A DNA stretch of 64,000 nucleotides from Ceratotherium simum simum (Eukaryota > Chordata > Mammalia > Perissodactyla > Rhinocerotidae). The notes under the pieces were generated by a model. It worked only from the letters and a program-made list of their open reading frames with translations, had not been told where the DNA came from and did no database searches. Each line of letters starts with the position of its first letter. Within the stretch, counting starts at the first letter, position 1. This document shows positions 1-59,239 of the stretch, one piece after another. The translations under genes and the position numbers were made by a program. The stretch covers positions 1,773,607-1,837,606 of the forward strand of contig NW_004454261.1 in the NCBI RefSeq assembly GCF_000283155.1, given 5' to 3'.

Positions 1-879
1 CTTCTTCCCATGCAGCCTGAGACCAGCCTTGACACTTCCCCATCCGCGCTGCTGCTGAGCCATCAGAGGTGGCCCGTCCCCTTCCCCCCGCCCCCCCACG
101 GTGAGGAAGTCACTTGCTTGTCTCCTTGGCCAGACCCTGCCTGCTTTCTAAGAGCCCAGGAGGCGTGCACTGGGGGCCCCAGTCCCTGCAGTGGCCCGCC
201 TGGGTCCCGGGGTATTCGGGCCCCGTGGGAAGACTTTCCTCCCAGCTGCGGTTCAGGGCACGCAGACAGCGCCCCGGGGGCTGTCAGGTGTGGCTGGAAT
301 TACCCAGGTAGAGAGAATCAGGCCCGAGAATCAGGACTCAGGATCGGAAGGAGAGAAAGTGGTTAGCCAGTCCCTCCCTTAACCCGCCTGCGTTAATGAC
401 ACGTTTCCTCTGTCAAGGTCTGTGTCCCATGCCCGCGGCAGAAATGGAGGCTTTCTGGACCCTTTAGAAGGTTGGTTGTGCCGGGGATGGGGTGGCCGGG
501 AAGGCTGGAGGGTGGGCTGATGGGATTCATTTGCTGGGCCTGGGGTGGGGGGAGAGTTGGCAGGAAGTGGTTTTCCACAATCCTGGGGTCACTGCCTTCA
601 GGGACAGTTGGCTGGGACCCAGGCCAGTGGCTGCAGCTTTGTGTGCTGTTGCTGGAGACTTCTCTTTCCACCCAGTGTCCCCCTCCAACTGCCTGGGGCT
701 CCGTCAGCAAATGGTGGTGGATTCTGGCTCTGAAAGGGACTTTCATCCAGTTCTCTCTCGCACGTGATTTTAAATAACTTGTATAGTTGACGGTGTCAGC
801 TGTCATGTAGTTTCTGTTATGTCAGGTACTTTACCTGTGTCATCTCATTTAATTCTCACTGGAGCCCTAAGTGTAGCTA

Positions 880-1010
880 CTGCAGTCCCATTTTATAGCT
901 GGGGAAATGGAGGCACAGAGAAGTTAAGTGGCTTCCCCAAGGTCACACAGCCCAGAAGGGGCAGAGCCGGGATTTGAACCCGTATCTCTCTGAGAGCAGA
1001 GCCCACTGAT
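880..1010 (+). repeat. MIR-type SINE fragment
   Basis: Contains the MIR-like core 'gaggcacagagaagttaagtg' followed by 'cccaaggtcacacagc' and 'gggatttgaacc'. Confidence 0.75.
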
Positions 1011-1379
1011 TTCACCCCTGGACTGAGAGTGAAGCTAGTCCTTCTTTATGGGGACATTTTGCTTCACCTCTTCCGTGTGATCTCTGTCCTGTGACCGGGG
1101 GCTGCTATCTTTTTTTTTAAGCCTCTGGGCACCTGCCCATCCTGGGGCCTGGCTGGCAAGAAGGTGGTTGCCGACCAAACCAGGGGTCCCTTTGACGTCA
1201 GATAGCGTTCAAGCGAGAACAGGGACTCGTTCACTCAACCTGAAATGTTTGTTGAGCGCTTTCTGTGTGCCAGGCACGGCCCTGGGCCCAGGGATAGAGC
1301 AGGAACAGGACGGCGGTGGGCCTGCCCCCGTGGGCTGAGAGCCCAGTGAGGAGGGCTCGCTCCCCCAGCCTCGTCCCTG

Positions 1380-1555
1380 GTGGTATTTGGGGTCGGATCA
1401 TTCTCTGCAGTGGCGTTGGGGCCGTCCTGTGTATTGTGGGACGCTCTGCAGCATCCCTGGTCTCCACCAGCCAGATGCGGGCAGGCTGCCTTCCAGTCGT
1501 GTCAACCGAACATGTGCCCTGGGGGGGCAGATGGTCCCTGGGTGAGACCCCCTGG
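1380..1555 (-). mobile_element. MER5A-type hAT-Charlie element
   Basis: Antisense copy with attctctgcagtgg, gcagcatccctgg and tgccctggggg segments shared with the other copies in this window. Degenerate. Confidence 0.65.
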
Positions 1556-1784
1556 GTTAGGGGATGCCGTTAACCCCCAAGAAACTCTGCATCCTTATCA
1601 TCTGACTGCTGAGGTCCAGGATGCTGCCCACGTTTAAATATACAAACTGAGTGGGAGAGAGAGAGGAAGGACTCACAGATGCTGGGGGTCACCCTGGTGT
1701 CCACCGTCTGACCCTCAGGAACTTATTCAGGTGTCTACCGTGAGCGGGGATCAAACTCAGTTTTTTTTGCTTGATACCGAGTGT

Positions 1785-2000
1785 GGAGTTTCTCCCCCTC
1801 GGCACTGTGGATGCTCAGGCCGGGTAGTCCTCTGGGAGGGGGGGCCGTCCTGGGTGCTGGGGGGGTGGGTCGAGCAGCATCCCTGGCCCCACCCACTTGA
1901 TGCCAGCAGCACACCCGGTGTGACAAGCACAGATGTCCCAGACATGGCCCAGTGTCCCCTGGGGGGCAGAATCGCCCCCATTGAGAGGCACTGTCCTAGG
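1785..2000 (-). mobile_element. MER5A-type hAT-Charlie element
   Basis: Segments gcagcatccctggcccc, acccacttgatgccag, gtcccctggggggcag and attgagaggcactg match the MER5A pattern in reverse. Confidence 0.75.
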
Positions 2001-2606
2001 GTGAGTGCTGTGCAGAAAGACGTGGTGCTGAGGTGGGGGTGACAAGGTAGCAACTTCGGATTGAGTGCCGGGAACACCTCTGAAGAGGAGCTGTCAGGAC
2101 CTGAAGGATAAGAGGGAGCAAGTCATACAGGAAGCAGGAAAGGCGCCCCGGGCAGAGGGACCGGCAAGTGCAAAGGCCCTGTGGTGGGAAGGAGTCCCTG
2201 CGTTTCGGGGAGAGTCAGGCCAGTGTGGCTGCAGATCGTGGTCCAGGGCAGAGGGAGAAGGTGAGGTCGGGAGGGCCGTCAGAGCAGCCACAGCGGGGAG
2301 TTGGGGAGTGTTCCGTGTTTGGCAGGTGCCCGCAGGTGGCGTCCCCGGAGTCATTGGAAGCGCCCATCCTCTCAGGGACCTCGCCTTGGGAGAACCGCCC
2401 GATTTCTGGCGGATGCCGGGCACCGTCTTGGATTTCAGGGCAAGGCCTGAACTATCCTCTGCGTCAGGACGCCCTGGGCGTTGGGCGGCCCCAGAATGGG
2501 GCGGGGAGAAGGGGGCGCGCGCTCGCCCTCCCCGGCCGCCCAGGGCTGCAGCTCTGCGGTCTCTCCCCGCAGGCCCCCCGCCCTCCTGAGGTCAGCCGAG
2601 CGGTTC

Positions 2607-37120
<34,514 letters not shown>

Positions 37121-42756: not shown

Positions 42757-43234
42757 TGCTGAATGTTTGCTTAGATTAGATTGAGGTCGTGCATTTGGGG
42801 CAGGAGTTCCAGAGGCACCGCTGGGAAGGTGTGTCCCCCTCGGTGCTTCCTGTCTGCGGCTCTGTGATGTCGCCGTCTCATTTCTGGTGACGTTAACTTT
42901 GATCATTGGGCTAAAGACGGTGTCTCCGTTGTAGATGACTATTTTTCTCTTTGTAACTCATAAGTGTCTTGGGGGGAAATACTTGGAGACTGTGCAAATA
43001 GCCTGTTTCACATCATCCTTTCCGGCACCAATATTGAGCATCCATCCACGGATCTTGGCTGCAACGTTTTTGAGGCGTTAGTCTAATGGTGATCCTCCAT
43101 TTCCCTCATTCCGTCTACATTTACTACTTGGAAGAGAAGCAGGGTCAGTCCACGGCTAGTAAGTGAGGGACGACTGGACCCTGAGGCCAGGACACGGGCT
43201 CCAAGGCCACCCACCCCAGGGATTCTCCCAGGAC

Positions 43235-43386
43235 TCCCAAGCCCCCCAAGATGGCGGCGCCGGCGGCAGGGGGCGGGGCGCGCCGGGTCACGTGGCCGCG
43301 CCGACGAGGACGTGGCCTCCCGCGGACGCCCCACGTGTCCCTCGCCGCGCCCCGTCGCCGCCCCTGCCGTGCGGACCCAGTCCAAG
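43235..43386 (+). promoter_or_regulatory. MYDGF promoter / CpG island
   Basis: A TATA-less, very CpG-dense stretch just before the MYDGF start. It has two aagatggcggc words matching the YY1 consensus (43248 and 43384, the second over the start codon), a GC box (gggggcggggc), two CACGTG E-boxes (43289-43294 and 43332-43337) and a gacgtgg half-site resembling unfolded-protein-response elements (43309-43315). Use of these sites is inferred. Confidence 0.7.
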
Positions 43387-43800
43387 ATGGCGGCGCCCAG
43401 CGGCGGGAGGAGCTGTGGCGGCGCGAGCATGTGGGCCGCGCTGCTCCTGGCGGCCGTGGCGCTGGGGCCGGCTGAGGCGGCGTCCGAGCCCACGACGGTG
43501 GCCTTTGACGTGGCGCCCAGCGGCGGGAGGAGCTGTGGCGGCGCGAGCATGTGGGCCGCGCTGCTCCTGGCGGCCGTGGCGCTGGGGCCGGCTGAGGCGG
43601 CGTCCGAGCCCACGACGGTGGCCTTTGACGTGGCGCCCAGCGGCGGGAGGAGCTGTGGCGGCGCGAGCATGTGGGCCGCGCTGCTCCTGGCGGCCGTGGC
43701 GCTGGGGCCGGCTGAGGCGGCGTCCGAGCCCACGACGGTGGCCTTTGACGTGCGGCCCGGCGGCGTCGTGCACTCCTTCTCCCAGGACGTGGGCCCGGGG
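43387..43800 (+). CDS. MYDGF: MYDGF exon 1 (signal peptide, three 120-bp copies)
   Basis: ATG at 43387 in a strong context (A at -3, G at +4). The block from GGRSCGGASMWAALLLAAVA through TVAFDV occurs three times without a base difference, then RPGGVVHSFSQDVGPG follows once. 138 codons here against 58 in human. Donor gggg|gtacgt. Each copy has its own in-frame ATG (43429, 43549, 43669) before the hydrophobic core. Confidence 0.9.
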
Positions 43801-46800
43801 GTACGTGCCTCAGCCGCCGCCGCGGGGGCTCGCGCTAGGGCGGGGCCCGAGGAGGGGGCGCGGACCCACCCGGGGGCGGGGCTTGAGGAGGGGGCGCAGA
43901 CCCACCCGGGGTCGGGGCTGCAGGCGGGGGCGCGGACCCCCCGGGGGCGGGGCTGGAGGAGGGGACGCGGAGCACCAGGGGCGGGGCCTGAGGAGGGGGC
44001 GCATACCCACTCGGGGTCGGGGCTGCAGGAGGGGGCGCGGACCCCTGGGGGCGGGGCTAGAGGAGGGGACGCGGAGCACCAGGGGCGGGGCTGGAGGCGG
44101 GGGCGCGGACCCCTGGGGGCGGGGCTGGAGGAGGGGGCGCAGACTCTCGGGGGCGGGGCTGGAGGAGGGGGCACGGACCACCAGGGGTCGCGGGACTCCA
44201 GTGCAGGATCATCACCGAATCTGAACTTCTAGAGGCCTCCTGGGGGCTGGCGACTCTGAGGGGGCTGGGTCACGAGCCTCAGTCCCCGTCTCCTCTCACT
44301 TGCCCAGAGCAAGTCCTGTCCCCCAGCCCCAGGCGAGTGGCCGGCCATCGGAGAGCAGGGCGGACCCAGAGGTGGGGAGAGGGAAGCTGGAGGCTGAGGG
44401 GTGTATGCCCCGGGCCCTGCAGAAGGTCGCTGCTGCAGCTCTAACCAGGGAGGAAGGGGACAGACTGCTCTTTCCTTCCACTTCACAAGGCCCCACATCC
44501 TTTACGTTGAGATGTGAGGCCAGGCCTCTACGTGGAGGCAGCAGGCCTGGGTCTAGCCCAGTGCTGTCCCCAGCTTGTTGGAGAAGTTGCTTCCTCCCCC
44601 CTCCTCCTTTTCCTTGTCTGTAACAACCATATCAACAGTCACTGTCTGTTGAGTGCTTCCTTAGCGCCGGGTCTTGTGCCGAATGCATCATGTGTTAAGC
44701 CCATCTTACAGATGAGGAAACGGAGGCCCAGAAAAGTTTGCACTTATCCAAGGCTCACAGCAGAGCAGAGACGGGGCCCCCAGGTGTCCCTGCTTCCACA
44801 GCCCGTGTTCCTAGATGACTGGGTGCTGGAGGGGGGTGACCTCTCCCTTCCTGTTCCTCATCCCCACATCTCCTGACCCAGGAGGTCTGCAGACCTGGGA
44901 GGCCTGGCAGGGTTGGCCTCCAGGGACATGGGCCAAAGCGATCTGGCCTCCTGTCCCCTGAGTACAAATGCCCAAAAGAGGGCTGAGGTTGATTCTGCGT
45001 CTCGGAAGGATGGCCTGAGGCTCCTGAGGCCCTGCACGTAAGCACTAAAGGTTACCTCCTACCAAGCCTTTTTTCCCCTTCCCTTCTTAGGGCAAGTACA
45101 CTTGTGTGTTCACCTACGCTTCTCAAGGAGGGACCAATGAGGTGAGTGGTTCAAAATTCCTCGTAGTTTAGTATGACGATGTCCATTGTCATCCAGAGAT
45201 GCTCCCAGGGGACAGCAGGGCTGGGTCGTGTGTGTGTGTTAACTTCCACTCATTAAACTATTCTTGCTTTACCAATAAAAGCGAGAGTGCTCCCTTTAAC
45301 TAGTGGTGGCAGAGTCCACTCATAATTCCACAAAGTGAGCTGATGTCTGGACAGAAAGAGGGAGGTGAGATGTGAATCTGCCATTCCCTTGAGCCTCTCT
45401 TAGGAGTGTTGTATTCGTTTTCTGTGCTCTTTAACAAGTATCACAGGCTCAGAAGCTCAAAACAACACCCGTTTGTTATCTCACGGTTCTGGAGGTCAGA
45501 GGTCCCAGCGGCTGTGCTGGGTGCTTCATAAAACCGAAATCAGGGTGTCAGCCAGGGCACACAAGGGAGATTTGACAGAAGAGGAGAGGACACAGGAGAG
45601 GCCACGTGACGATGGAGGCAGAGACGAGTGATGCGGCCACGAGCCAAGGAACACGGGGAGCCACTGGGAACTGGGCGAGGCAGGAAGGACCCTCCCCTGG
45701 AGCCTCCGGAGGGACGGCCCTGCTACACCTTGACTTTGGACTTCTGGCCTCCAGGACTGTGAGAGAGTAAATTTCAGTTGCTGCAAGCGACCAAATTTGT
45801 GGTAGTTTGTTACAGCAGCCCCAGAAACTGATACATAAGCAACAGACGACTGGTACAGCCAGGAATGCACCGTGACACGTAAAACCTCTGAGAAGAAAAG
45901 ACTGTTTTCAGTTCTGGCTGGGTGCCGCTGCTTGGTTCTGTCTGGAGGGAGAGCAGCATGTGTTCGAGAAGAGGCGCAGAGCAGACTTTCTCCTGGCGAC
46001 TGTTAGAAAGAGTGGAACAAAACTGAGAAGGAAGACTTAACCGTCGCTGCGAAAATCAGTTAAAAACATTTTTTGTATCCCTTATTGCGCTTTCCTCCCC
46101 AACACGCAGACTTCAGGAAACACTGCTCTCATTCTAGAACATTCTGTGGTCCCGCATCCCATAACAGTGTAGAGTCTGAGAGACGGCGGCCACCCGGGAA
46201 CCCCTACAGCACATGCGTGGCCTTCCCAGCAGGCTGGTTCTGCGTCCATCTCCTTGTCTTGCCCTCAGGACAGTGAAATGGGCCAGAGGGGTCTCCCCCC
46301 TCGGCACTGCTGACATGGGGCCCGGTCATTCTCTGTGGGGGGCTGTCCTGGGTGCTGTGGGGGGTTGAGCAGCATCCCTGGCCTCCACCCACTCGATATC
46401 AGGAGTACCCCCAGTGTGACAACCACAGACGTCCCCAGATGTCACCCAGTGTCCCCCGGGGGACAGAATTATCCCCAGTTGAAAACCACTGGGCAAAAGT
46501 GACATGAAATCCACTTTTATTATCTTAGATATATCCACTTTGTAAATAAAAGTCAATGACTCCCAGCGGCAGTGTTTTAACAACGTGTAGCAAGCGACTG
46601 GTGACACCCCTCCCAGCGGTGCCAGCGGTGGCCACTCTCCCGCGGAGCATCGCCGCCGTCGTCCGCCCTTCTCTCTGCCACTCGGACAGTGGGCGTCCTG
46701 CGATTATCCGCCCGTTCCTCCCACACCTCCAGGCCTCGCTGCTTCTCCAGACCGTCCACTCCGCTGTGGGAGGGCGCCAAGTGGTGGAACATTCTTCCTA

Positions 46801-49800: not shown

Positions 49801-52800
49801 ATTTGGCCGGGTTTTCAGAGGCCGTGAAAATCAAAATAAACTGGTAGCGATGTGTTTTGGAACCTTGAAATTTTTTAATTTAGTGTTTTTGAAAAGCTAA
49901 CACATTCACATCGCTCAAAAAGAAAAACATGAAAAGCTTCCCAGCACCTTCCATGTGCCCAGTTCTCGCCCACATCCTACGTGTAACCACGGTTATTAAA
50001 ATCCCGTGTCTTTTCCGAGGACCGTTTATGCTTCTCCAAGCAAGCAAGAATATGCTGTCTTCCTTTCTTTTATTCTCGTGTCTGTTTTTGTTAACAGACT
50101 TTATCTTTTAGAGCGGTTTGAGGTTCACAGCAAAATTGAGCGGAAGGCACAGCGATTCTGGTATATTTCTGCACCCCAGGCCCCCGTTATCGACATCGCC
50201 ACCAGAGGGCGCAGCTGGTACAGTCGAGGAACCTACAGGGACGGGTCACAGTCACCCCAAGCCCGTGGTTGACGTTAGGGTCACTCTCGGTGGTGTGCGC
50301 TCTGTGGGTTTGGATGAGTGTACAGTGACACATGTCCCCCATTATGGGTCCCACAGCAGTGTCACCGCCGCCGGGCAGAGCGTGGGGACCTGCGGGCCGG
50401 GCTCCGGCCGGGAGGCCCAGGGAAGGTTTGCTCGCTTTGCAGAACTGGAAGCCCTCGGGGCGAGCCGCGCGCAGCCAGGCTGTGTGTGCGGACTGACCCG
50501 TGTCTGTCTTTGTCCCCAGAGGTGGCAGATGAGTCTGGGGACCAGCGAAGACAACCAGCACTTCACCTGCACCATCTGGAGGTGAGGGTGGGTCCCGGCC
50601 GTGGTCGGTATCCTGGCTCGCGGCTGCTCCGGGCAGCAGGGGAAGGGGGCGGACACACGACGGGGTCCTGCACCCCGAGAGGTGCGCAGGCCGGCGGGGG
50701 GACGTCACCCACGTGCGGGCGGGAGAGGGGTGCCTGACCGTGCTGGGAGCTGGCGGGGGCGGGGGGGCCCCCAGGGAAGCACGTGGACCTGGAGGCCCAG
50801 AGCGGTTGGGGGGCTGGGAGTGCAGTCCAGGCGGTGGGGGCTGCACCTGGGGGGGGGCCAGGCTCCCCAGACGCTCCCGCCATGTCACCGCAGTCATGGT
50901 CACAGTTCAGTGCCTTGTCCATGCTCCTCGTCCCCTTGCTGGGAGCCAGCTGGTGAGCCCGAGAGGGGTGATGGACAGGGAGTGCTCAGCCCTCCGGCAG
51001 GGACGAGGGTGACAGAGCTGCCTCGGGTCCTGTCCCAGCTCCCCGGGCTCCGCGGCCTGGGGCCTATCGCCCAAGAGGACCGTTTCTCCTGCATTTATTG
51101 TGCGCCTGGAACAGCACAGGCACTGTGGGGGTGTGCAGAAGAAGCCCACGCCAAGGTCCCACCCTCAGGGCACCGGGGTCAACATGGGGAGAGATCACAA
51201 ATGGGACACAATTACAGAGCAGTGACGGCGACATTTAACTAAAGGACACGGCGCGTGTTAATCATACTCATGGGCGTCATCCCAGTCTCCTGCTTGACAT
51301 TGTATAAACAGCAGGCGTCTACTAGATAGTGGGGGGTCTCACGCGCTCTGCAGGACTGGCCCCTGTTGGCACAGGCGGAGGCCCCGGGGCCAGGAGCCCA
51401 GTGTCCTCACCAGGCCAGAGCCCGTCTGCGCCGCCCCAGTGGTGGGCGCGCCCCCGTCACAGGGAAGGCCCCCGCCTGCGCCCATCCTCTGCAGATCGCT
51501 GCCTCGCTCTGCCACGTGAGCCCCGCCCTCTCGGTGCCCAGGGACACGCAGCCACGGGGCGGAGAGAATCGGGGGGCTCCCTGATCGCCCCCCACCCACC
51601 TGCACACGCCCCCGGCCGGGCTCTCCTGGCTGCCGCCCCCCACCCCCATCAGTGTGTGCCCTCCACACGCGCCCGATGGAGCCCTCACATGGCAGACACC
51701 ATCGTCCCCTCGTGTCACCGGCCCTCCCCTCGGCTCCTCGCTGCTCTGGCCACGCTCACCTTGTGGGTCCTGAAATGCCCCCGTTTGCACCCTCCCTGGG
51801 ACCTTTGAGATGCTCCCCCGCCCCTTCCTAGTTAACTCCTGTACTTCTCGCCCTCCGGGGTTGTCGCTGGCCCGGCCCTCACTGCCACACCTGGAACGTC
51901 GTGGACACTCAGTTACAAACCATTCAGTGAACGAACAGGAGGAAGGGTCCCGTCCCAGAACAGCTCGAAAGGGAAAGAGCCAGAAGAACGTTCTGGCAAA
52001 GAGGAAAGGGGGATGATGTTGAGGGGGCCCCGTCCTCCCCAGAGCCAGCAGCGCCGTGAAACGGTTCCCGTCTTGAGGAGGGGGCGCGCGCAGCCCCTGA
52101 CCGCGCCCGGCTCTCTCTGCAGGCCCCAGGGCAAGTCCTATCTCTACTTCACACAGTTCCGGGCAGAGGTGCGGGGCGCCGAGATCGAGTATGGCATGGC
52201 CTACGTGAGTACCGGCGGGCGTGGGGGCTGCGCGGGCCGCCCCGCCGTGGACGCACCTTTCAGGGCACTGGGGGGGGGCAGGCCCACCCACGCCCCCGAG
52301 GATAATCCCCTTGACTTCAGGTCAGCTCAGGAGGGCCTTGAGAGCATCTCCAGATTACCAGCACACTAGCGAGAGTTTGCGTCACTGGGGACCGTGGCCT
52401 TTCCAAGTCCACACATCAGGCGGCCCACCACGCCCTTGAGCCAGCTGCTCTCCGAGGTCCCCTCTTACCTTAAAGCTCTGTTATTGTAGCTGAGTTGAAA
52501 GAGACACCATTCCGATCTTTAAAAATTACACTCAAGAGACTGCCGTGCTTGTATCATTTCCACAAATTAACTCAAGAAAATACTTGAAGTAAATACTCCC
52601 CCCCCCCCAGGATTTGCAGTGAAGGCGTGAAGTTTTCAGCCAGTTGACGGGTCTCTTAAGTGGATTAACCCAACTCTTCTATGGGATTCTCCCTTCCATG
52701 CTAAGAAAAGCATCGCGCGGCTTTAGTCCGCGCTTCCAGCGATTGGAACCACGTTCTCCCCCGGTTAGCAAAGTTTCCCGTTTCCTTGCAGTCGCAAGCC

Positions 52801-53808
52801 GCGTTTGAAAGGGAGAGCGACGTTCCCCTGAAAAGTGAGGAATTCGAAGTGACCAAAACGGCAGGTGCGTAAAGAGGGGTTGTGGGGCGGAACCCGGGTA
52901 CCAGCCGTGGGACCGCGTGTGTGACGGGGGAGGCGGGTCACGCCCCGTGTCCTCTGAGCCTCGCGGGGCAGGTGCTGAGCAGAAAGATGGGTGGGAAGCT
53001 CCAGAGTTGGGGCTCAATGTGCGAGCAGTGGGGGGCGAGCAAGTGTGATGATGGACATGGGGGTTCGCCGAGTCGGGGGGCCCTGAGGGTCCTGAGGGGC
53101 AGGGAAAGACGAGGTGAAGGACCCCACGTGGCTGTGGGCGTCACCAGGCGTGAAAGTGGAGGGGAGGGGACGGCAGGGGCAGGGGGCTTTTAGGGGAGGG
53201 GCTGGGTCCGGAAGGAGCCCCGCCCAGTCCGCAGGTCCTCGAGGGCCTGGGGAGCATTCAGGGTGGAGGTCGAGGATGGGAGATGGGGTTGCTGGCAGAC
53301 CCTGAGCCCCAGGGCACGCAGTGGGAGGAGAGGAGGGGCAGGGAGTCAGGGTCCGGCTCGGGTGGGGGACGGCAGGTGGAGGCCGGATTCCCTGGTCCTG
53401 CTGGAAAAGCGTCACATGGGCCTCTGACAAATCTGTCAGTGTGAGCAGGAGGTGACACAGTCCCACCCCTGACCCCCGTCCATTCTCCATGTGGCCAAAA
53501 TGACCACGGCTCTGCCCACCTTGAACTCTCCTGTGGCCCCCACTGCCCTCAGGACAGGCCCACCAACCTCTCCACCTTTCTTCTTCCCTCACCTGTAAGA
53601 CTCTCGGGGCTGGGAGCCTTTCCTGGGTGGAGTCCACTCAGGGGACGGCTCCCCTGCCCGGCCCCCGGCCCAGGACCCCGAGAACCCGCAGGGTGGCGAG
53701 GGCCCAACTGACGTTTCTTGTTTTGCAGTGTCCCACAGGCCCGGGGCCTTCAAGGCCGAGCTGTCCAAGCTGGTGATTGTGGCCAGGGCGTCCCGCAGCG
53801 AGCTGTGA
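43387..53808 (+). CDS. MYDGF: MYDGF, myeloid-derived growth factor (6 exons; exon 1 tandemly triplicated)
   Basis: MYDGF (formerly C19orf10/IL25) is a small beta-sandwich protein with a signal peptide, reported as a bone-marrow-derived growth factor and as an ER/Golgi-resident protein. Exons: 43387-43800, 45091-45141, 50520-50581, 52123-52204, 52792-52864, 53729-53808, all GT-AG with phase kept. As written the frame gives 253 residues. Human has 173, and the excess is exactly 80 residues, two extra copies of a 40-residue block in exon 1. The body (SEPTTVAFDVRPGGVVHSF, YTCVFTYASQGGTNE, FTCTIWRPQGKSYLYFTQF, EVRGAEIEY, FKAELSKLVIVA) is clearly MYDGF. The C-terminus RSEL is a KDEL-like retrieval signal (human RTEL). 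Apart from the triplication the gene looks intact. Confidence 0.95.
43392..43751 (+). repeat. Perfect 120-bp tandem triplication in MYDGF exon 1
   Basis: Units 43392-43511, 43512-43631 and 43632-43751 are identical base for base. The period is 120, a multiple of three, so the frame stays open. Confidence 0.97.
43845..44195. repeat. G-rich minisatellite in MYDGF intron 1
   Basis: Repeating units of roughly 36 bp such as gaggagggggcgcggaccc followed by gggggcggggct. Several runs of four or five G per unit make G-quadruplex formation plausible. It directly follows exon 1. Confidence 0.85.
44640..44770 (+). repeat. MIR-type SINE fragment
   Basis: 'actgtctgttgagtgcttcc', 'gatgaggaaacggaggccca', aaggctcacagcagagc: a MIR-like order of motifs, in MYDGF intron 1. 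Confidence 0.75.
45091..45141 (+). CDS. MYDGF: MYDGF exon 2
   Basis: 17 codons, GKYTCVFTYASQGGTNE. Acceptor cttcttag after a T/C-rich tract, donor tgag|gtgagt. Confidence 0.96.
45412..45555 (-). mobile_element. MaLR LTR end (antisense)
   Basis: 'gtattcgttttctgtgctct', 'tatctcacggttctggaggt'. It lies head-on to the sense copy that follows. Confidence 0.65.
45560..45838 (+). mobile_element. MaLR LTR 3' part (sense)
   Basis: 'ttgactttggacttctggcc', ctccaggactgtgagagag, 'gtggtagtttgttacagcag', 'cagaaactgatacat'. Confidence 0.75.
46295..46495 (-). mobile_element. MER5A-type hAT-Charlie element
   Basis: Antisense, nearly complete: ccctcggcactgctgac, gcagcatccctggcctcc, 'gtgtgacaaccacagacgtc', 'cagttgaaaaccactgg'. 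Confidence 0.85.
47850..48335 (+). mobile_element. Old L1 (L1M) fragment
   Basis: Phrases 'agcagcgtgattgctaacag', 'gtggataaataagatgcggt', 'cactggaatatgacgcagcc' and 'gtgatggaatattctggaat' are typical of old L1 3' ends. Confidence 0.65.
48340..48539 (+). mobile_element. ERE-type SINE
   Basis: gggccggcctggtggtgtag start, 'gttcgcaggttcaaatcctg', 'cggatgttagctcagggcca', A tail. Flanked by tgaattgta and tgagttgta, a slightly decayed target duplication; it sits in the L1 fragment. Confidence 0.92.
49168..49358 (-). mobile_element. ERE-type SINE, antisense
   Basis: T-run, then 'gaagattcaccctgagctaa', ggaactgaacccgggccgcc, 'aacctaaccaccaggccac'. Confidence 0.9.
50199..50212 (+). promoter_or_regulatory. 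Candidate CTCF site in MYDGF intron 2
   Basis: CCACCAGAGGGCGC fits the CTCF core consensus (CCASYAGRKGGCRS) at every position. It lies in an L1-like stretch 305 bases before exon 3. Binding is inferred from the motif only. Confidence 0.5.
50520..50581 (+). CDS. MYDGF: MYDGF exon 3
   Basis: RWQMSLGTSEDNQHFTCTIW plus two bases of Arg. The first codon is AGG (Arg) where human has Gln. Acceptor gtccccag, donor gag|gtgagg. Confidence 0.95.
52123..52204 (+). CDS. MYDGF: MYDGF exon 4
   Basis: PQGKSYLYFTQFRAEVRGA, then EIEYGMAY. Acceptor tctctgcag, donor ctac|gtgagt. Confidence 0.97.
52792..52864 (+). CDS. MYDGF: MYDGF exon 5
   Basis: SQAAFERESDVPLKSEEF, then EVTKTA and one base of Val. Acceptor ccttgcag, donor gcag|gtgcgt. 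Confidence 0.97.
53729..53808 (+). CDS. MYDGF: MYDGF exon 6 and stop
   Basis: SHRPGAFKAELSKLVIVARA, then SRSEL and TGA at 53806-53808. The C-terminal RSEL is of the KDEL-like type. Acceptor ttttgcag. Confidence 0.97.
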
Positions 53809-57332: not shown

Positions 57333-57893
57333 TCAGATGCTGCCGTCGTCCAGCATCCTGGAGAGGCCGTCGCAGAGGCGGCCCAGGTGTGAGCGGTAGG
57401 GCTCGGCGGGCCCGTAGAGCGCGGCCAGGAAGTCGCCGTCGGCCAGGCGGCCGAAGACGTGGCCGATGCGGCCGCGGGACTTGGCGGTGAGGTGCGGCCC
57501 GGCGGCCTGGAGCAGCAGGTCGCGGCACTCGAGCAGGCCGGCGGCCAGCACGCGCCGGTCGAAGGAGAAGGCCACCTGCTGGAAGGTCAGGGCCGTCAGG
57601 GCCAGGCGGCGCGCGCGCTGGCGGAGGCGCCCCAGCGCGGCCAGCCCGTCGGCGCCCAGGACGCCGCCGCGGAGCAGCAGGGCCACCTTCAGCGCCACCT
57701 TCACCAGGCCGCGCACCAGCCTCCGTGCCTCCGCGCGGCTGCGCGTGAACTCCTTGGTGGCGCGGTACAGCTCGTCCAGCACCGCGCTGCTCGCCTCGTC
57801 CAGGAAGGCGGCCGCCGTGGCCCTCGAGGCCACCTTGCCCAGGAGCTGCTTCTGCGCCTGCAGGGCCAGGCTCTTGCTGCTGAAGGCGTCCAT
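57333..57893 (-). CDS. TNFAIP8L1: TNFAIP8L1 (TIPE1), TNF alpha-induced protein 8-like 1
   Basis: A TIPE-family protein: an all-helical fold with a central hydrophobic cavity that binds phosphoinositides. TIPE1 is reported to act in cell death, autophagy and mTOR signalling. The single coding exon reads from CAT at 57891-57893 to TCA at 57333-57335 and gives 186 residues, the human length. Recognised blocks are MDAFSSKSLALQAQKQL, LDELYRATKEFTRSR, FDRRVLAAGLLECRDLL, GPHLTAKSRGRI and the C-terminal ALYGPAEPYRSHL. An open frame continues 29 codons upstream of this Met, but a splice acceptor (cccggcag) lies just 5 bases before it, so the Met is the start, as in the family. The coding DNA is very GC-rich. 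It faces MYDGF tail to tail. Confidence 0.95.
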   Translation of the reverse strand: MDAFSSKSLALQAQKQLLGKVASRATAAAFLDEASSAVLDELYRATKEFTRSRAEARRLVRGLVKVALKVALLLRGGVLGADGLAALGRLRQRARRLALTALTFQQVAFSFDRRVLAAGLLECRDLLLQAAGPHLTAKSRGRIGHVFGRLADGDFLAALYGPAEPYRSHLGRLCDGLSRMLDDGSI

Positions 57894-57898
57894 CGGCC

Positions 57899-57925
57899 CT
57901 GCCGGGGACAGACAGACAGACAGAC
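57899..57925 (-). promoter_or_regulatory. TNFAIP8L1 splice acceptor with TCTG-repeat pyrimidine tract
   Basis: On the minus strand, six or so TCTG units run into ccccggcag, and the exon opens ggccg then ATG. The repeat stands in for the usual pyrimidine tract. Confidence 0.75.
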
Positions 57926-59239
57926 AGACAGACCCCCGTCGGGTCAGGGCGCCGGGAAGGACACAGCGCCCCCGGAACACCAGCTAGGGAGCACCCACTG
58001 CGTGCCAGGGCTGGGCAGAGTGGACCCGCGAGCAGGGCAGGAACGCGTGGCAAGTGACACGATCCGGGAAGCCACAAGCCCGTAGCGCGGGCACCCCAGC
58101 CGGTCAAGAGAGCCCCACAGGCTTCCTGGAGGAAGGGGCAGAGGAGAAGGTGGGGGAACACAGAGCACAAGAACCTGCATAGGAAAAGCTTGTGGAAAAG
58201 CAGCATTCACACTGAAGAGATGATGCCCCAAGGGACCCTAAGGGACCTAAGGGGATTGGTTTCTTAAAACAAAAGAGAGTGCTAAGTCAAAGGAATGAAT
58301 GCCTAATGGCGAAATCTGGGTAGGCCTTCTGAGGCCCACTACTTGTGGGCCCTGGCACCAGCCCCCCAAACCCACCATACCCTTGCTGTGAGTTGAGAAA
58401 GGGCTCAAGGTGAGTTATCACAGGGGGTCCAGCTCATCATTCCCCACCCCCATCCCGCGCTTTGGTGAGAGAGGGTCCAACCACCTCCTTCCCACAGCAC
58501 CAGAGTTCTTCCTAAACTGCACATCTGGGCATAGCCCTTCCCTTCTGAGAACCTTCTGGCAGCTCCCAGGACCAAGCCCCATACCTCATTCAAGCCCCTG
58601 CCTCTTCCTTGGTGAACTCCTATACATCCCCCAAAGCCCTGGCCCCCAAGCCCCTGCCTCTTCCCCTCACAGATTCATCCCTCAGCTCAGCCTGGACACC
58701 ACTTCCTCTAGGAAGCCACCCCAGAACAGCCAAACTGAGCGCGAAGCCCCTCCTCTGGGCCACACAGTGCCCCAGGCGTCCCCCATCACTGCTCTGCCCC
58801 CCCCCACAGGCTTTGCTTCCTCAATGGTCTGCCTGACCCCAGGCCACGGGGGAGGTAATGGGTCTCATTCCTTATCCGATGTCTCCTTGGAGACTCTAGA
58901 AACGTCTGCCGAATGAACGCGGGGAGCCTGAGACCCACCCCCACCCTGGCCCCAGGCCAGCCGGCCAGGAATGCCACGTGGGCGCCCACTCACCCCGGGG
59001 CCCCACAAGGCCGTCTTTGTGCGAGCTCGGACCCCGGGAGGAGCCCAACCCTCGGCCGCCCTCTCCCCTGCCCTCAGGGGTCAGGGCGGGCGCGGGGGTC
59101 ACTGGACCAGCCTTCCTGCGCCCACCCGGTCACCGACCCCGGGGCTCCGCAGCGGGGCCGGCGCAGGGATGCTGTTGACTCAGGCCCGCGTGGCCGGTCC
59201 CAGTGCGTCACTTCCCGCCAGTATTGGGCGGCTTGCCCG

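Follow-up and report, generated by a model that had tools for sequence, protein, structure and literature searches.

Does the first coding exon of MYDGF in the white rhinoceros contain three copies of one 120-bp segment, or did the assembly write a single segment three times? The question arises in a 64,000-nucleotide stretch of the Ceratotherium simum simum genome assembly, which is called the window here and to which all positions refer.

The 120-bp array and its gene

Window positions 43392-43751 are made up of three 120-bp tandem units that are letter-for-letter identical. The initial annotation had described three identical in-frame units inside MYDGF exon 1, and this was confirmed by letter comparison and by translation, which ran through all 3 units in frame and without a stop. 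The perfect period-120 run is 361 bases long (43392-43752), with a 1-bp microhomology (G) at 43752 at the array junction, and the unit-to-unit junction reads TTTGACGTG/GCGCCCAGCGG. At the protein level, precursor residues 3-42 (APSGGRSCGGASMWAALLLAAVALGPAEAASEPTTVAFDV) are present three times. The repeat unit corresponds to codons 3-42, which means the signal peptide and about 11 residues of the mature protein; the earlier description of a triplicated signal-peptide exon was right about the signal peptide but too wide about the exon, only part of which is in the unit. The features are as follows.

34579 to 34678, no strand: 100-N assembly gap with identical 80 bases on each side (exact-match scan)
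43387 to 43800, plus strand: MYDGF exon 1, coding part as written, 138 codons (translation and splice sites; matches the solved MYDGF chains 6o6w and 6svk)
43392 to 43511, plus strand: unit 1 of the perfect 120-bp tandem array (sequence comparison)
43512 to 43631, plus strand: unit 2, identical (sequence comparison)
43632 to 43751, plus strand: unit 3, identical, running on into the unique remainder of the exon (sequence comparison)
45091 to 45141, plus strand: MYDGF exon 2 (spliced CDS)
50520 to 50581, plus strand: MYDGF exon 3 (spliced CDS)
52123 to 52204, plus strand: MYDGF exon 4 (spliced CDS)
52792 to 52864, plus strand: MYDGF exon 5 (spliced CDS)
53729 to 53808, plus strand: MYDGF exon 6 with the stop codon; C-terminal RSEL (spliced CDS)

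A scan for exact matches of at least 40 bases at distances of 15-7999 gave 6 matches in total. The longest was the array itself (241 bases at distance 120, plus 121 at distance 240), the next was an 80-base match at distance 180 flanking the N gap, and the remaining ones (68, 52 and 41 bases) lay within other tandem repeats. The array is far beyond chance. There is no N between its units, and when the unit was searched against the whole assembly it was found at these three places only, in a search that scores only the best candidates.

The start codon of MYDGF is at 43387 and the exon 1 donor, GTACGT, at 43801; all five introns have a GT donor and an AG acceptor. The six exons give a CDS of 762 bases, which encodes 253 amino acids and a stop, and apart from the array the gene is intact. 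Taking out two units leaves 173 residues, the same length as human MYDGF, a point of the initial annotation that the spliced CDS bears out; this one-unit protein is identical to the human sequence at 152 of 173 positions. The UPF0556 domain PF10572, the family of MYDGF (formerly C19orf10), was matched at residues 120-250 (E = 6.1e-48). According to the available text of PMC6901522, human MYDGF consists of a signal sequence of 31 residues and a mature part of 142, and it ends in RTEL. The window gene as written departs from this layout, with 253 residues and the signal segment in three copies. The gene is plainly the MYDGF orthologue, and only its N-terminus as written departs. The three hydrophobic segments that had been read in the precursor were also found by computation, with a Kyte-Doolittle peak of 2.55 over 11 residues and only 1.63 over 19, so that, as expected, they fit signal-peptide cores and are short for membrane spans.

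Among 308 database matches, the top-ranked one was MYDGF of the black rhinoceros (Diceros bicornis minor), which has 173 residues, a single unit and the same RSEL end. It is identical to the window's one-unit protein at 170 of 173 positions, with differences at residues 10, 43 and 117. A repeat of the unit was present in none of the best 120 of the 308 homologues, nor was there any 253-residue MYDGF among them. This supports a single unit as the ancestral state, as had been supposed. The sole internal repeat found among these best 120 was in a Myotis brandtii MYDGF record (P0050, 180 residues), where the 17 residues equivalent to exon 2 (DKYTCVFTYASQGGTNE) stand twice in tandem, with an unrelated N-terminus; this exon repeat is either real or a gene-model error.

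Three neighbouring ORFs were tested as well. The ORF at 31134-31745 matches the prolyl oligopeptidase domain and, by its position, is presumably DPP9; the ORF at 57336-57980 (minus strand) matches TNFAIP8, and on the same grounds we take it to be TNFAIP8L1; the ORF at 28613-29104 had no match. A 675-bp TGATGG-type tandem array lies before MYDGF at 30258-30932, near the prolyl-oligopeptidase-like ORF.

Age, copy number and the source of the junction

The initial annotation had concluded from the zero divergence that the array was either an error or a very recent duplication. We reckoned the age over 360 sites (3 × 120 bp), with the copies taken as equally old and with constraint and gene conversion ignored. 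At the mammalian average rate of 2.2e-9 per year, zero differences give a 50% bound of 0.9 My and a 95% bound of 3.8 My. At the rhinoceros mutation rate of 2.2e-8 per generation of 25 years, as given in the available text of PMC13296254, the bounds become 2.2 My and about 9.5 My. Since the sites number only 360 and the 95% bound reaches 9.5 My, zero divergence says little on error against real change and is weak as proof of error; the choice that had been offered stands, but “very recent” was too strong.

The written copy count of three is weak evidence and unreliable whether the array is real or not, because at tested word lengths up to 122 bases (not at 150) arrays of two, three or four units are indistinguishable. 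Three units and four units share all words at tested lengths up to 242 bases, not at 250.

In the single-unit locus, no word of more than 7 bases is common to the neighbourhoods of the two breakpoints, and a second unit required k-2 new k-mers at all 17 word lengths tested (15 to 300 bases), so single-unit reads cannot lead a k-mer assembler to the junction. The junction must have come from a true duplication, from a chimeric molecule or from joining that works without shared words. Within the 500 positions tested, no repeated word was longer than a 16-mer, CCAAGATGGCGGCGCC, which occurs twice, 136 bp apart, at 43246-43261 and 43382-43397. The MYDGF start codon lies within the second copy, which also crosses the left breakpoint of the array, but the 16-mer cannot create the array junction because its partner sits 136 bp upstream. 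We think that this word resembles a YY1 site, and its first copy opens an out-of-frame 74-codon ORF (43251-43475) that overlaps the second.

Breakpoint homology was rejected as a cause. The 28-bp neighbourhoods reach a local score of 17, which is not special, because many background pairs do as well: at least 17 was also reached by 224 of 761 position pairs at a spacing of 120 bp and by 1181 of 4561 pairs drawn at random from the same stretch. Unusual single-strand folding of the unit was likewise rejected, with a DNA fold z-score of 0.19 and 119 of 200 shuffles folding at least as well. No G4 motif (four runs of at least 3 G, loops 1-7) was found on either strand in 43187-44250.

Assembly error or real duplication

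The draft in question, CerSimSim1.0 (GCA_000283155.1), is described in the available text of PMC13296254 as a short-read assembly with a contig N50 of 93 kb and 57,823 contigs, and PMC12107126 regards apparent translocations of the southern white rhinoceros draft as probable assembly errors. Within the window, exon 1 of MYDGF lies in 78-80% GC (79-80% over about 1 kb), and a GC-rich minisatellite of ~34-bp units in roughly 10 diverged copies (43838-44187) begins 37 bp past the exon. Nine kilobases upstream of the array, the 80-base repeat around the N gap (34499-34758) lies inside another GC-rich minisatellite, of ~41-bp units. This match is likely an unmerged overlap of contig ends, so that the true gap at 34579-34678 may be an overlap of 80 bases; because the gap sits in a minisatellite, a true repeat is possible there as well.

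The assembly was sampled in 27 stretches, together 270,000 bases (36,882 of them N), and 21 of the stretches came from the scaffold of the window, so the sample is not random. It held 15 N runs, corresponding to 14 distinct gaps (one gap was cut between two stretches); the five runs lying wholly inside a stretch measured 108, 121, 258, 3179 and 5835 bases. Among the six gaps with both flanks in hand, an end overlap was present only at 34579-34678, and the other five had no word longer than 9 bases common to their 200-bp flanks. The 27 stretches contained no other perfect tandem pair with a unit of 40-599 bp, which indicates that such arrays are not a common fault of the assembly as sampled; perfect pairs of a shorter unit, 20-36 bp, occurred in 5 of 20 stretches. 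The draft was presumably made with ALLPATHS-LG from 180-bp fragments, an assumption that carries no weight in our verdict.

Taken together, we consider an assembly error slightly more likely than a real change. The reading that we prefer, with a probability of roughly 0.55, is that the array is a defect of the short-read draft and that MYDGF of this animal is an ordinary single-unit, 173-residue secreted/ER protein. It is favoured by the single unit of the black rhinoceros and the missing repeat among the best 120 of 308 homologues, and also by the nature of the draft, which is gapped, short-read and has a duplicated contig end 9 kb away from an exon of 78-80% GC. Short-read coverage would often fail in such a GC-rich exon beside a 34-bp minisatellite, and a chimeric read, a faulty join of contig ends or gap closing could then have laid down the same 120-bp piece three times. 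Several observations disfavour the error: the breakpoints share no word longer than 7 bases and k-2 new k-mers are needed, there is no other such pair in the 27 stretches and no N between the units, and the array is in frame, for which the chance is 1 in 3. Were the array indeed such an error, it would show plainly how a draft assembly can rewrite the N-terminus of a conserved secreted protein, and anyone relying on the gene model should be warned.

The main competitor, to which we give somewhat less than an even chance, is a real, lineage-specific, in-frame tandem multiplication, fixed or heterozygous, that gave the sequenced animal two units or more. Codons 3-42 would have been duplicated through a junction with 1 bp of microhomology, and unequal exchange or slippage between the perfect copies would have added further ones; the written three would be a lower bound or a guess, and three units would make the precursor 80 residues longer. 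The reading frame without a stop and the conserved exons and splice sites argue for this explanation, as does the lack of a shared word by which a k-mer assembler could invent the junction. With fragments of 123-242 bases, three is also the lowest count distinguishable from two, so a fragment-limited assembler might print three for any array of at least three units. The zero divergence is compatible with an age of up to 9.5 My (95% bound at the rhinoceros rate), and the 27 sampled stretches contain no similar array. Against it stand the single unit of the nearest listed relative and the best 120 of 308 homologues, in which neither a repeat nor a 253-residue MYDGF occurs.

In a real array, the first signal segment would target the ER, and signal peptidase may cut each repeated AEA/A site; every unit has an ATG with A at -3, so translation may also start at the ATG of the third unit, and a mature protein with the RSEL end could result. 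The likely outcomes would be serial AEA/A cleavage, an uncleaved N-terminal extension or third-unit initiation. It seems to us unlikely that a MYDGF with at least two in-frame units exists in white rhinoceroses, if only as a polymorphism, and that they cope with it by successive cleavage or a lower ATG. Our search found no literature joining MYDGF and the rhinoceros.

It is very improbable that the array is real but silent, never reaching the protein because transcripts start inside or below it or because the extra units are spliced out: initiation at the third-unit ATG would yield an ordinary signal peptide of 17 residues, and CpG-island promoters often have dispersed start sites, but of the four ATGs the first lies in the best context (at 43387, A at -3 and G at +4; at 43429, 43549 and 43669, A at -3 and T at +4), and removal of exactly one or two units by a GT-AG intron is ruled out because the unit has no AGGT and only an AG/GC site.

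Comparison with known systems

False duplication can arise from neighbouring contigs that overlap, and in draft genomes such duplications extend to coding exons, according to the available text of PMC2864568 and PMC9516828. Like false duplications at contig ends, the array consists of identical adjacent copies that are absent from the nearest listed relative, where the unit is single, and its own scaffold shows an 80-bp duplicated end at a gap. In contrast, the false copies in the portion seen of PMC9516828 are mostly separated by gaps, whereas the array has three copies and no gap. Short-read gap closers can also miscount tandem repeats, as reported in the text seen of PMC10265787, where four programs gave 0.9, 1.9, 1.9 and 7.9 copies of a 69-bp repeat of about 2.9 copies and a fifth was right. 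The accessible portions of this work on false duplications and gap closers contain no example of a single unit turned into three.

For a real array, the closest parallel is RANK, in which in-frame signal-peptide duplications of 12-27 bp accompany bone disease; a cleavage defect was suggested at first, and a subsequent mouse model favours another mechanism (PMC9412102, available text). In view of the link between RANK signal peptides lengthened in frame and bone disease, a fixed triplication in MYDGF would be expected to cost function, which counts against a real array. Both cases, as far as the same text describes RANK, are in-frame tandem duplications in the first exon of a secretory-pathway protein that lengthen its signal peptide, and the MYDGF array is likewise in frame and without a stop. 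However, the RANK duplications are of 12-27 bp, from human patients and with disease, whereas the MYDGF array has 120-bp units in three copies, is known from a draft assembly only and, unlike RANK, takes in almost the entire signal peptide as well as the beginning of the mature protein. With MYDGF elsewhere, the window gene has in common the mature domain, the six-exon structure and the KDEL-like end; as written, it differs by 80 extra residues before the mature domain.
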